A stretch of 41,176 nucleotides of DNA, taken from assembly GCA_018333835.1 (NCBI GenBank), contig JAGXSL010000022.1:1-41176 (forward strand), written 5' to 3'. The DNA is from Lysobacteraceae bacterium. Lineage in GTDB: Bacteria > Pseudomonadota > Gammaproteobacteria > Xanthomonadales > Xanthomonadaceae. The notes below the pieces were generated by a model. It searched no databases and had not been told where the DNA came from. It was given only the letters and a program-made list of their open reading frames with translations. This document shows, one piece after another, positions 21,720 to 25,455 of this stretch. Positions within the stretch are counted from its first letter, which is position 1, and each line of letters begins with the position of its first letter. Both the position numbers and the translations under genes were made by a program.

Positions 21720-21850
21720 GGGCTCGGGGCGCGACGGCCCGCGTGGAAAGTCAGCCCGCGAGAGTACCGCACGGGGCCCTTCGACGGCCGCGGAAACAGG
21801 CCGCCCGTTCGCCGGCGTCGCGGGAGGACTGCTGCGCTTGCGCTTATTCC

Positions 21851-21865
21851 GTACAGATCGTACAG
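21851..21865. promoter_or_regulatory. Direct repeat GTACAG-N3-GTACAG just upstream of the phd-like antitoxin (candidate operator)
   Basis: Sequence GTACAGATCGTACAG, 7 nt before ATG 21873. Confidence 0.4.
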
Positions 21866-21872
21866 TCGGCCC

Positions 21873-22133
21873 ATGAAGACCCCCAGCAAGCTCCCGTCGA
21901 AAGGCGCCGAAGAAGCGCGCCAGCAGCTGCCGGCGATCCTCGCCGCCGCCGCCGCTGGGCGCACGACGCTCATCACCCGCCACGGCCGGAAGATCGCGGC
22001 GGTGGTGCCGGCATCGGCCGTGAGCGCCGCCAAGCCGGTCTCGCTGCTCGCGCTGGCCGGCACCGGGCGAGCGCTCTGGGGCCGCGACAGCCGCGCCGCG
22101 ATCCGCGCGCTGCGCGAGGAATGGACGCGCTGA
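21873..22133 (+). CDS. Type II antitoxin, Phd/YefM-like (TA module 1)
   Basis: [38 protein letters not shown], Phd/YefM N-terminal pattern; toxin gene overlaps its 3' end. Confidence 0.8.
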
Positions 22134-22579
22134 ACGTGGACGCGCTCGACGTCGATGCGCTGCCGGCCGGAGCGCTGCTGCTCGTCGACAGCGCGCCGAT
22201 CATCTACACCCTCGAGGCGAACGAGCACTTCGCCACCCGCTTCGCACCGCTGTTCCAGCGCCATGCCGACGGCGGCATCGCGCTGGCGGTGAGCACCGTC
22301 ACCATCGCCGAGGTGCTGACCGGCCCGCTGGAGGCCAGCGAAGAAGCCCTCGCCAAGCGCTACCGCGCCGCGCTGGAGTCGTGGCAGGTCGTCGAGCTCA
22401 CTGCTGACATCGCCGAGAGCGCGGCGCGACTGCGCGGCCAGTACGGCCTGAAGCTGCCCGACGCCATCCAACTCGCCAGTGCGCTGGCGATCAACGCCGA
22501 TGCACTGGTGACGCACGACCGCGACTTCTCGAAGGTGCGCGGCGTGAAGATCGTAACCTGGCTGATCCGCGATCGATAG
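22121..22579 (+). CDS. Type II toxin, PIN domain VapC-like (TA module 1)
   Basis: [63 protein letters not shown] acidic residues in order. Confidence 0.88.
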
Positions 22580-22590
22580 CGGCGTCGTAG

Positions 22591-22596
22591 TATGAT
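22591..22596 (+). promoter_or_regulatory. Candidate -10 box TATGAT upstream of TA module 2
   Basis: TATGAT 26 nt before ATG 22622; no convincing -35. Confidence 0.3.
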
Positions 22597-22621
22597 CTTG
22601 GCATCGATCAAGGACCCTGAT

Positions 22622-22828
22622 ATGCAAGCCGTAACCGTCTCTCCCAAGTTCCAGGTGGTAATCCCGCAGGCCGTGCGTGAGGCGATGGGGCTGTTGCCCG
22701 GCGTCAAGCTCCAGGTCGTGCAGTTCGAAGACCGCATCGAGCTCATTCCGCTGCGCTCGGCCAAGGCGCTGCGCGGCACGCTGCCCGGCCTCGACACCAC
22801 GGTTCCGCGCGACGGCGATCGCGCGTGA
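22622..22828 (+). CDS. AbrB/MazE-type (SpoVT-AbrB) antitoxin (TA module 2)
   Basis: MQAVTVSPKFQVVIPQAVREAMGLLPGVKLQVVQFEDRIELIPL, AbrB swapped-hairpin signature. Confidence 0.88.
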   Translation: MQAVTVSPKFQVVIPQAVREAMGLLPGVKLQVVQFEDRIELIPLRSAKALRGTLPGLDTTVPRDGDRA

Positions 22829-23211
22829 GCCGGCACGTGGTCGACTCGTCGGCCTGGCTGGAGTACTTCGCCGAGGGGCCGAATGCCCCGCACTTCGCGG
22901 CGGCGATCGAAGCGACCGAGAGCCTTGTGGTGCCGACGATCACCCTTCTCGAAGTGTTCAAGCGGATCCGCCAGCAGCGCGATGAGTCGGTGGCGTTGCG
23001 CTACGTGGCGCTGATGCAGCAGTCCACCGTCGTCGATCTCGATGCCGCCCTCGCCCTTCGCGCCGCTGCGCTGGGCGTGCGCCACAAGCTGCCGCTGGCG
23101 GACAGCATCGTCTACGCCACGGCACAGGCCGCCGGCGCAACGCTATGGACGCAGGACGCCGACTTCGACGGCCTGCCCGGCGTGGAGTTCTTCGCTAAGG
23201 CTGCGCCATGA
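22825..23211 (+). CDS. Type II toxin, PIN domain VapC (TA module 2)
   Basis: GTG start overlapping the antitoxin stop (GTGA); HVVDSSAWLEYF, TITLLEVFK, LPLADSIVYATAQAAGATLWTQDADF. Confidence 0.9.
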   Translation: MSRHVVDSSAWLEYFAEGPNAPHFAAAIEATESLVVPTITLLEVFKRIRQQRDESVALRYVALMQQSTVVDLDAALALRAAALGVRHKLPLADSIVYATAQAAGATLWTQDADFDGLPGVEFFAKAAP

Positions 23212-23291
23212 ACCTGATCGCCGGGTTCCAGCGTCGGAACCTGCGCTGCGAGTCGTCGGCGGGTTCACCGTTCGACAAGGCGGCCGTGGCA

Positions 23292-23313
23292 GGATGATTC
23301 ATCCCAAAAGGGA
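23292..23313. promoter_or_regulatory. Two overlapping inverted repeats upstream of TA module 3 (candidate operator)
   Basis: GGATGA-T-TCATCC (23292-23304) and TCCC-AAAA-GGGA (23302-23313), directly before the antitoxin start at 23324. Confidence 0.5.
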
Positions 23314-23572: not shown

Positions 23573-23964
23573 TCATCGACCCCTCGGCGGTCATCGCGAT
23601 CCTGGCCGGTGAGGCCGACGCCGAGCACTTCGCGCGACGGATCGAGCAGGACCCGACGCCGCGCATCGGCGCACCGGCCCTGCTTGAGGCCTCCATCGTG
23701 CTGACGCGCTGGTTCGGCGAATCCGCCAAGCCCGCGCTGGACCCCTTCGTCCGTGAATCGGGCGCGGAAATCGTGCCCTTCGACCTGCCGCAGCTGCGGG
23801 CCGCGCAAGAGGCCTACCGCCGGTTCGGCTAGGGCCACCACCCGGCCGGCCTGAACTTCGGCGACTGCATGAGCTATGCGCTGGCGCGCGCCTGCGACGA
23901 GCCCCTGCTGTTCAAGGGCGACGACTTTCCACAGACCGACATCGCCCAGGCGGAGCCCTCTTGA
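23569..23964 (+). pseudogene. VapC PIN toxin interrupted by in-frame TAG (TA module 3)
   Basis: ORF 23569-23832 (MIIDPSAVIAILAGEADAEHF...AYRRFG) ends at TAG 23830-23832; the same frame continues [43 protein letters not shown] to TGA 23962-23964. Confidence 0.88.
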
Positions 23965-24008
23965 AGCTCCTCGCCGAACTCTGACGCCGCGCTGCGAATG
24001 ACGCAGTC

Positions 24009-24036
24009 TTGAGGGTGTCGAGCACCAATGTATACT
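24009..24036 (+). promoter_or_regulatory. Candidate sigma70-type promoter for TA module 4
   Basis: TTGAGG (24009-24014), 16-nt spacer, TATACT (24031-24036), then near-palindrome ATATTGATAT and SD GGAGG (24058-24062) before ATG 24069. Confidence 0.6.
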
Positions 24037-24068
24037 GCCGATATTGATATGTTGATCGGAGGAAGGTC

Positions 24069-24308
24069 ATGGCACTGCAGATCGCCAATCCCGTTGTCGT
24101 CGCCAAGGTCGAAAAACTGGCAAAGGCCACCGGCTTGAGCAAAACGGCACTGGTGGAACGGGCCGTCGATCAACTCCAACTCGAGTCCCAGCGCTTGACC
24201 GCTCCCGGCCTGCGCCTCAAGTCCCTGCTGAAGCAGATCGACACGATCCCCGATCGCCTCGACGCCAGCGACCCGCTGGACTGGGACGAAAACGGCCTGC
24301 CGACGTGA
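24069..24308 (+). CDS. VapB antitoxin, PSK-like (TA module 4)
   Basis: MALQIANPVVVAKVEKLAKATGLSKTALVERAVDQL...DWDENGLPT; overlaps vapC by 4 nt. Confidence 0.85.
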   Translation: MALQIANPVVVAKVEKLAKATGLSKTALVERAVDQLQLESQRLTAPGLRLKSLLKQIDTIPDRLDASDPLDWDENGLPT

Positions 24309-24712
24309 TCGTCATCGACACCTCCGCCCTGGTGGCGATCGTGTTCGCCGAGCCCGAGCGCGACGCTTTCCTTGATGTTCTGCAAAAGCATCAGCGGGTT
24401 CTGATCAGTACGCCGACGGTGGTGGAAACCCGTCTGGTCGTCCATGGGCGGCGCGGGCAGCGCGCGGTGGTGCTGCTGGACGATCTGCTGCGGCTGCCGC
24501 CGTTCGAGCTGGTAGCGCCCGATGCGGAGCAAGCCATCGCCGCGTACTCGGCGTTTGTCGCTTACGGCCAAGGCAGCGGCCACCCGGCCTCGCTCAACTA
24601 CGGCGATCTGTTCAGTTACGCACTCGCCAAAGTCCGCGGCCTGCCGCTGCTGTTCAAGGGCGATGGCTTTGCGTCAACGGACATCGAGTCGGCTCTGGAA
24701 GATCGCCCATGA
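24305..24712 (+). CDS. VapC PIN toxin (TA module 4)
   Basis: IVIDTSALVAIVFAEPERDAF, TPTVVETRLVV, GHPASLNYGDLFSYALAKVRGLPLLFKGDGF; GTG start. Confidence 0.9.
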   Translation: MIVIDTSALVAIVFAEPERDAFLDVLQKHQRVLISTPTVVETRLVVHGRRGQRAVVLLDDLLRLPPFELVAPDAEQAIAAYSAFVAYGQGSGHPASLNYGDLFSYALAKVRGLPLLFKGDGFASTDIESALEDRP

Positions 24713-24791
24713 ACCTCATCCGCGAACTCCAGCGCCGCAGCGCCATCCACGGCGCCGGATTGACGCCGCCACCCCCGAATCCTATTCTTAC

Positions 24792-24806
24792 CTTCGTCTT
24801 ACGAAG
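24792..24806. promoter_or_regulatory. Inverted repeat CTTCGT-CTT-ACGAAG upstream of TA module 5 (candidate operator)
   Basis: Perfect 6-bp arms, 3-nt spacer, 9 nt before ATG 24816; TATTCT upstream could be a -10. Confidence 0.5.
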
Positions 24807-24815
24807 AGCCGCGCC

Positions 24816-25079
24816 ATGGAAACCACCCGACTGTCGAGCAAGGGGCAGGTGATCATCCCGAAGTCGGTGCGCAGCGCACATGGCTGGGAAGCCGGGCTCG
24901 ACTTCCAGATCATCGACACCGGCGACGGCATCCTGCTGCGCCCCAAGGCGCCGTTCGAACCGACCGCACTCGCTGACGTGGCGGGCCTGTTCAAGACCAA
25001 GGTGCCTGCGCGCAGCGATGCGGAGATCAAGGCGGCGGTGGACGGCGCGATCAAGAAGACGTGGCGTGGTCGCGGTTGA
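24816..25079 (+). CDS. AbrB/MazE-type antitoxin (TA module 5)
   Basis: METTRLSSKGQVIIPKSVRSAHGWEAGLDFQIIDTGDGILLRPK. Confidence 0.9.
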   Translation: METTRLSSKGQVIIPKSVRSAHGWEAGLDFQIIDTGDGILLRPKAPFEPTALADVAGLFKTKVPARSDAEIKAAVDGAIKKTWRGRG

Positions 25080-25455
25080 TACGAACGTGGTCGTGCGCCT
25101 GCTGACGGCGGATAACGCCGCGCAGTACAAGGCCAGCGTCGCGCTGTTCTCCACCGAGACGATCTTCATCCCGTTGACCGTGCTGCTGGAGACGGAATGG
25201 GTGCTGCGGGTGGCCTACGAGCGAACGGCCGCCGAGGTGTGCGAAGCGCTCCGCCGCGTACTCGGCCTGCCGAACGTCGACGTTGCCGACGCCCAGCGCG
25301 TCGCGCAGGCCATCGCGTGGCACGAGCGTGGCCTTGATTTCGCCGATGCGCTTCATCTCGCCTTGAGCCAAGGCCACGAGACGCTCAAGACCTTCGACAC
25401 CGCGTTCGTGCGCCAGGCCAAAGGCCTGGGCGAGTGCCAGGTGGAGAAGCCGTGA
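25066..25455 (+). CDS. VapC PIN toxin (TA module 5)
   Basis: GTG start at 25066 gives VVAVDTNVVVRLLTADNAAQ, LTVLLETEWVLRVAY, LDFADALHLALSQGHETLKTFDTAF. Confidence 0.88.
   Translation: MVAVDTNVVVRLLTADNAAQYKASVALFSTETIFIPLTVLLETEWVLRVAYERTAAEVCEALRRVLGLPNVDVADAQRVAQAIAWHERGLDFADALHLALSQGHETLKTFDTAFVRQAKGLGECQVEKP

Follow-up and report, generated by a model that had tools for sequence, protein, structure and literature searches.

Modules at the leuS–amidohydrolase interval

We analysed a 41,176-nucleotide (nt) stretch of DNA from a Lysobacteraceae bacterium (GenBank assembly GCA_018333835.1, contig JAGXSL010000022.1), hereafter the window. Between leuS and an amidohydrolase gene it holds ten open reading frames (ORFs) that make up five antitoxin/toxin pairs of VapBC type, all on the + strand, and remnants of other genes at the ends of three of the toxins. 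The toxin–antitoxin (TA) modules are numbered 1 to 5, with antitoxins A1–A5 and toxins T1–T5; lengths are given in amino acids (aa).

18954..21767, − strand: leuS, left border of the interval, 5′ end at about 21767; 83–92% identical and adjacent to the amidohydrolase gene in genus mates
21873..22133, + strand: A1, Phd/YefM-type antitoxin, 86 aa; PF02604 28.4 bits against a cut-off of 29.8, TIGR01552 exactly at cut-off
22121..22579, + strand: T1, PIN/VapC toxin, 152 aa; PF01850 63.3 bits, four acidic positions all seen by eye
22622..22828, + strand: A2, AbrB/MazE-type antitoxin, 68 aa; PF04014 30.3 bits, TIGR01439 43.7 bits
22825..23211, + strand: T2, PIN/VapC toxin, 128 aa, GTG start; PF01850 64.4 bits
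23324..23572, + strand: A3, PSK-type VapB antitoxin, 82 aa; PF07704 78.6 bits, same-site ortholog in genus mate G003 91% identical
23569..23832, + strand: T3, PIN/VapC30-like toxin, 87 aa, truncated by an in-frame TAG; homology runs on to 23964, ortholog in G003 intact
24069..24308, + strand: A4, PSK-type VapB antitoxin, 79 aa; PF07704 47.1 bits
24305..24712, + strand: T4, PIN/VapC30-like toxin, 135 aa, GTG start; PF01850 68.8 bits, PDB VapC30 E 4.8e-27
24816..25079, + strand: A5, AbrB/MazE-type antitoxin, 87 aa; PF04014 34.3 bits
25066..25455, + strand: T5, PIN/VapC toxin, 129 aa, GTG start; PF01850 45.7 bits
25594..26883, + strand: amidohydrolase gene, right border of the interval; found in 60 of 61 genomes searched

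A sequence-only reading of this DNA had described five consecutive + strand pairs in about 3.6 kb, with Phd-, AbrB-, PSK-, PSK- and AbrB-like antitoxins, PIN toxins, and an overlap of 4–14 nt within every pair. All ten ORFs lie where it had placed them, and the overlaps measure 13, 4, 4, 4 and 14 nt for pairs 1 to 5. Pfam and NCBIfam searches assigned the same families: a PIN domain in T1–T5 (Pfam, E 7.6e-8 to 8.6e-19), MazE/AbrB domains in A2 and A5, PSK_trans_fac in A3 and A4, and a marginal Phd-type domain in A1, just under the Pfam cut-off. T1, T2, T4 and T5 score well over the PF01850 cut-off and each carries the four acidic positions; T3 stops before the last two. The count of five pairs thus stands for the ORFs but not for intact toxins, since T3 ends after 87 aa. 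This truncation had been overlooked, as had the pieces of other genes where T2, T3 and T4 end.

In all five pairs a small antitoxin with a DNA-binding domain, marginal in A1, lies upstream of the toxin and overlaps it. Judged from the families, each module would be an ordinary type II TA system, in which the antitoxin binds the PIN RNase, silences it and acts as a repressor at its own promoter. The upstream control sites do differ between pairs, as had been proposed, but the best inverted repeats, considered as candidate autoregulatory operators, were not clearly above those in shuffled sequences. The modules mostly have a lower GC content than the genes on either side, module 4 the lowest. 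The genome is a 2.55-Mb draft in 211 contigs, and five of its eight PIN matches sit within these 3.6 kb, a clustering far beyond chance. The other three PIN genes are on separate contigs; two have one antitoxin-like neighbour each, and a contig end interrupts the third.

Remnants of TPR genes at toxin stop codons

Two gene families recur in what follows. MNL is our label for tetratricopeptide repeat (TPR) proteins of about 620 aa that start like MNLLKELQRRNVIRMAGLYL, in which Pfam finds TPR repeats alone. HIR denotes proteins of about 260 aa with RTRLLRVAEHIRTQNWTAIGIDF, which matched no Pfam, NCBIfam or PADLOC model. We built a position weight matrix (PWM) from 27 intact MNL starts and scored 82,288 positions in the window. 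The three best positions, 24709 (39.6 bits), 23208 (28.6 bits) and 23961 (20.1 bits), coincide exactly with the stop codons of T4, T2 and T3; the fourth scored 0.9 bits, leaving a gap of 19 bits.

23208..23252, + strand: MNL scar 1, what is left of a TPR gene start, lying over the T2 stop; PWM rank 2 of 82,288, 28.6 bits; CGCTGCGAGT at 23244
23961..23999, + strand: MNL scar 2, degraded TPR gene start over the end of the T3 reading frame; PWM rank 3, 20.1 bits; last-codon match at 23990
24709..24762, + strand: MNL scar 3, start of a TPR gene retained over about 18 codons (MNLIRELQRRSAIHGAGL), with ATGA over the T4 stop; PWM rank 1, 39.6 bits; pattern match

MNL starts are therefore found on the toxin stops of T2, T3 and T4. 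A degenerate pattern for the MNL start gave four matches in eight genomes of the genus, all in the leuS–amidohydrolase interval: those at 23208 and 24709 in the window, and two at the same locus in the genus mate G006. The spacers past T2 and T3 also hold the word CGCTGCGART, which corresponds to the last codons of the G006 MNL genes (in scar 1 it is the CGCTGCGAGT at 23244) and has just three occurrences in the window, both strands counted. The 5′ starts and last codons together are apparently what internal deletions of MNL genes left behind.

Elsewhere, tandem arrays of MNL (TPR) and HIR genes with many ATGA overlaps were seen at L113–L125 and L069:1285-8974. Paralogs in MNL/HIR arrays share best 20-codon head blocks at 86–92% nt identity and have nearly unrelated tails (about 10–25% aa); among the MNL paralogs of one array, the first 20 codons are 86% identical in nt and the tails about 35–45%. 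Defence-system models matched none of T1, T2, T4, T5, MNL and HIR.

State of the site in related genomes

The five-module array is not fixed in relatives. Five of the seven genus mates (G001, G002, G004, G005 and G007) have only 116–173 bp between leuS and the amidohydrolase gene, and G003 has a single module there, an intact ortholog of module 3. In G006 the order is leuS, MNL, vapB-vapC, MNL, six HIR genes and amidohydrolase: the leuS contig enters an MNL gene, the amidohydrolase contig starts inside one, and the two contigs share 19 bp at these ends and join in frame. The vapC of this interval is the sole PIN gene found in the G006 genome, and the locus matched none of T1–T5. Seven of the 20 PIN matches of the genus fall inside the interval, which is supported as a variable site.

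The empty interval is probably the ancestral state, because leuS and the amidohydrolase gene are adjacent in most of the wider-family genomes examined. Other long gaps between the two genes in the family (G025, G022 and G015) contain no PIN, MNL or HIR genes. In a tree of LeuS, the amidohydrolase and a thioredoxin-like protein, G006 groups with empty species (support 100), and the present genome (G000) groups with G003 with a support of only 51. Either two fillings of the site or one filling and several losses would fit.

vapC–MNL junctions elsewhere in the family

Further genomes of the family have intact MNL genes whose start overlaps the stop codon of a vapC gene by the same 4 nt as here, the vapC genes being unrelated. 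An intact MNL directly follows a T2-like toxin in G382 and G347, and a T1 homolog (74%) in G124. Two toxin–MNL junctions occur in G067, one of them with an N-terminally truncated T2 homolog; at L190 / L249 of this genome the truncated homolog is followed by an intact MNL and then by a second PIN–MNL pair. MNL genes are equally found after HIR or other TPR genes. T2–A2 pairs occur across many phyla with no MNL neighbour detected, and the vapC–MNL linkage therefore appears to be limited to this bacterial family.

Two further loci bear on these junctions. In G098 (L130:1923), a T1 homolog has at its end a short MNL-like stub of 10.9 bits, a score that is unexceptional at a position that is not; an independent loss of MNL after vapC is possible there. 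In G149 (L188, 1890-2110), a divergent MNL-like start (MTEFLQRLKEPKLVQWALAY) lies downstream of a T2 homolog, which suggests that the linkage reaches more distant relatives of the gene family.

A broken toxin beside an intact antitoxin

T3 starts at 23569 and meets an in-frame TAG at 23830-23832, codon 88. Homologous sequence extends past the stop to 23964, and acidic positions three and four lie in this stretch; the 87-aa product is therefore expected to lack nuclease activity. The T3 ortholog found at this chromosomal site in G003 is uninterrupted and 85% identical, and its antitoxin is 91% identical. From these short sequences, the ratio of nonsynonymous to synonymous substitution rates (dN/dS) was 0.12 for A3 and 0.29 for T3; within T3 it was 0.19 past the stop versus 0.37 ahead of it. 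Because the ratios are low and the part past the stop is no more relaxed, the inactivation looks recent. A T1 homolog in another genus (L131 of G149, about 1500) is likewise broken, by an in-frame TGA; decay of these toxins therefore recurs.

T3 and T4 resemble VapBC30 of Mycobacterium tuberculosis (PDB 4xgq, 4xgr): the G003 ortholog of T3 (E 1.1e-31) and T4 (E 4.8e-27) match VapC30 over their full length, and both modules have PSK-type antitoxins. Unlike VapC30, T3 in the window lacks the last third of the domain.

Separate histories of the modules

The modules differ in the genera that hold their closest relatives. Close relatives of T1 were found only in genera g23 and g26, and those of T5 in g5 (66%, with A5 homologs). 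T2 has close relatives in g5, g26, g56 and g62, and homologs in many phyla that nearly always stand next to an A2 homolog. Outside this locus, the best relatives among 279 family genomes are at most 44% identical for T4 and at most 41% for T3, and plasmids of rhizobia and related bacteria commonly carry VapC30-like relatives of both. Within the array the closest toxins are T3 and T4 (39% identical), with T1 and T2 at 36%.

Several sources for the block as a whole were considered and set aside. Parts of it match 97 plasmid records, best in modules 3–4, but none covers most of it, and no match was found among 50,697 phage records. The longest word shared by the island ends is 7 nt, the same as in shuffled sequences, and thus no target-site duplication was recognized. 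Integron-type arrays of TA cassettes also line up several small TA units that all point one way, as here, but no attC-like core-site pairs are present in the interval. The sequence-only reading had noted the lack of a mobility gene, and this holds for the interval, which has no integrase ORF; the remaining genome was not searched for one. Tandem duplication was rejected on the unlike antitoxins and the different nearest relatives.

Discussion

We consider it probable, with real room for doubt, that the VapBC island is the survivor of a larger array of MNL and HIR genes. Three modules end on one TPR family, and the same family stands intact beside vapBC at the orthologous site in G006, in an array that also contains HIR genes (as joined through the 19-bp contig overlap); this points to erosion of an array. 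The modules would have entered the leuS–amidohydrolase site as members of arrays with MNL-type TPR and HIR genes, each MNL gene beginning on the preceding vapC stop, as it does in relatives and presumably did here. The MNL and HIR genes would later have been deleted, twice apparently within the gene so that both ends remained. The TA modules may have been retained because loss of an active module is harmful; to go by the families, such a loss would free a PIN toxin. Module 3, shared with the sister species, would later have lost its toxin through the stop codon; A3 would then be an orphan antitoxin, and might act as a regulator.

A number of points weigh against this account. The G006 gene order depends on a 19-bp overlap between contigs of a draft assembly, and a sequencing error, also possible in a draft, could account for the stop in T3. 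The end-of-MNL words are short, were spotted post hoc and are weaker than the 5′ matches. Neither T1 nor T5 was seen to be followed by an MNL scar, and no remnant of an HIR gene was found. Module 3 of G003 has no scar, which was either lost there or gained here. Retention through addiction is put forward as a proposal only.

The sequence-only reading had pictured a locus that repeatedly acquires VapBC cassettes. Synteny bears out the variable site, but the capture of bare cassettes is less well supported in the light of the MNL remnants and the G006 array. Serial insertion of single VapBC modules, with MNL fragments carried as passengers at their 3′ ends, would account for the patchy distribution of each module's relatives over different genera, for the empty site in most sister species and for the frequency of VapC30-like relatives of T3 and T4 on plasmids. 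It sits poorly with a full MNL/vapBC/HIR array at the very site in G006, with scars on three modules, and with the lack of attC-like pairs or of flanking repeats longer than in shuffles, and we regard it as unlikely. Divergence after tandem duplication of one ancestral module seems scarcely credible: the identities between T3 and T4 and between T1 and T2 are what it can draw on, but T1 and T2 are paired with different antitoxin types, A3 and A4 give no BLAST match to each other, and much closer relatives of T1, T2 and T5 exist elsewhere, the nearest relatives in different genera being evidence against it.

Recombination at MNL heads is another way in which such an arrangement could arise, the conserved first ~60 bases providing homology by which incoming vapBC–MNL pieces join resident arrays. 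Unrelated genes (several vapC types, HIR and TPR genes) all end on an MNL start, and paralog heads are far more alike than tails, both of which speak for it. On the other side, selection for translational coupling could just as well explain the tight ATGA overlaps between all genes of the arrays, and head conservation could reflect protein function. We find this very doubtful as the explanation of the present island in place of the erosion of an MNL/HIR array.

Clustering of TA modules is itself already known. Makarova, Wolf and Koonin (2009, PMC2701414) described toxin–antitoxin system (TAS) islands, in which pairs of unlike class are spaced more closely than chance allows without tandem duplication as the cause, and proposed insertion into preferred regions or transfer of cassettes. 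The present locus likewise shows an excess of close TA pairs that tandem duplication hardly explains, three antitoxin classes, and variable presence among close relatives. It differs in offering empty, one-module, array and scarred states at one orthologous site, with modules tied to one TPR family. In M. tuberculosis several VapBC systems lie in horizontally acquired islands, with pseudogene copies in relatives (Ramage 2009, PMC2781298); here, in contrast, five consecutive pairs occupy 3.6 kb between two housekeeping-type genes and carry scars. A non-exhaustive search of open papers found little on TA arrays beyond these two studies, and no report of the TPR-gene linkage or of the scars, which are the new parts.

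TA islands have been recognized statistically since 2009, and the manner of their formation was left open at that time. One genus that holds empty, one-module, full-array and scarred five-module sites allows a direct test of how islands form, namely whether TA modules build up by insertion or are what is left because the genes around them, unlike the modules, can be lost. The broken toxin beside its intact antitoxin is a natural case of toxin loss with the partner persisting. We think it quite unlikely, yet worth stating, that MNL heads act as landing sites that gather unrelated vapBC modules into composite vapBC–TPR operons, from which loss of the TPR genes then leaves dense TA islands; if true, such landing sites would constitute an integrase-free route to TA islands.

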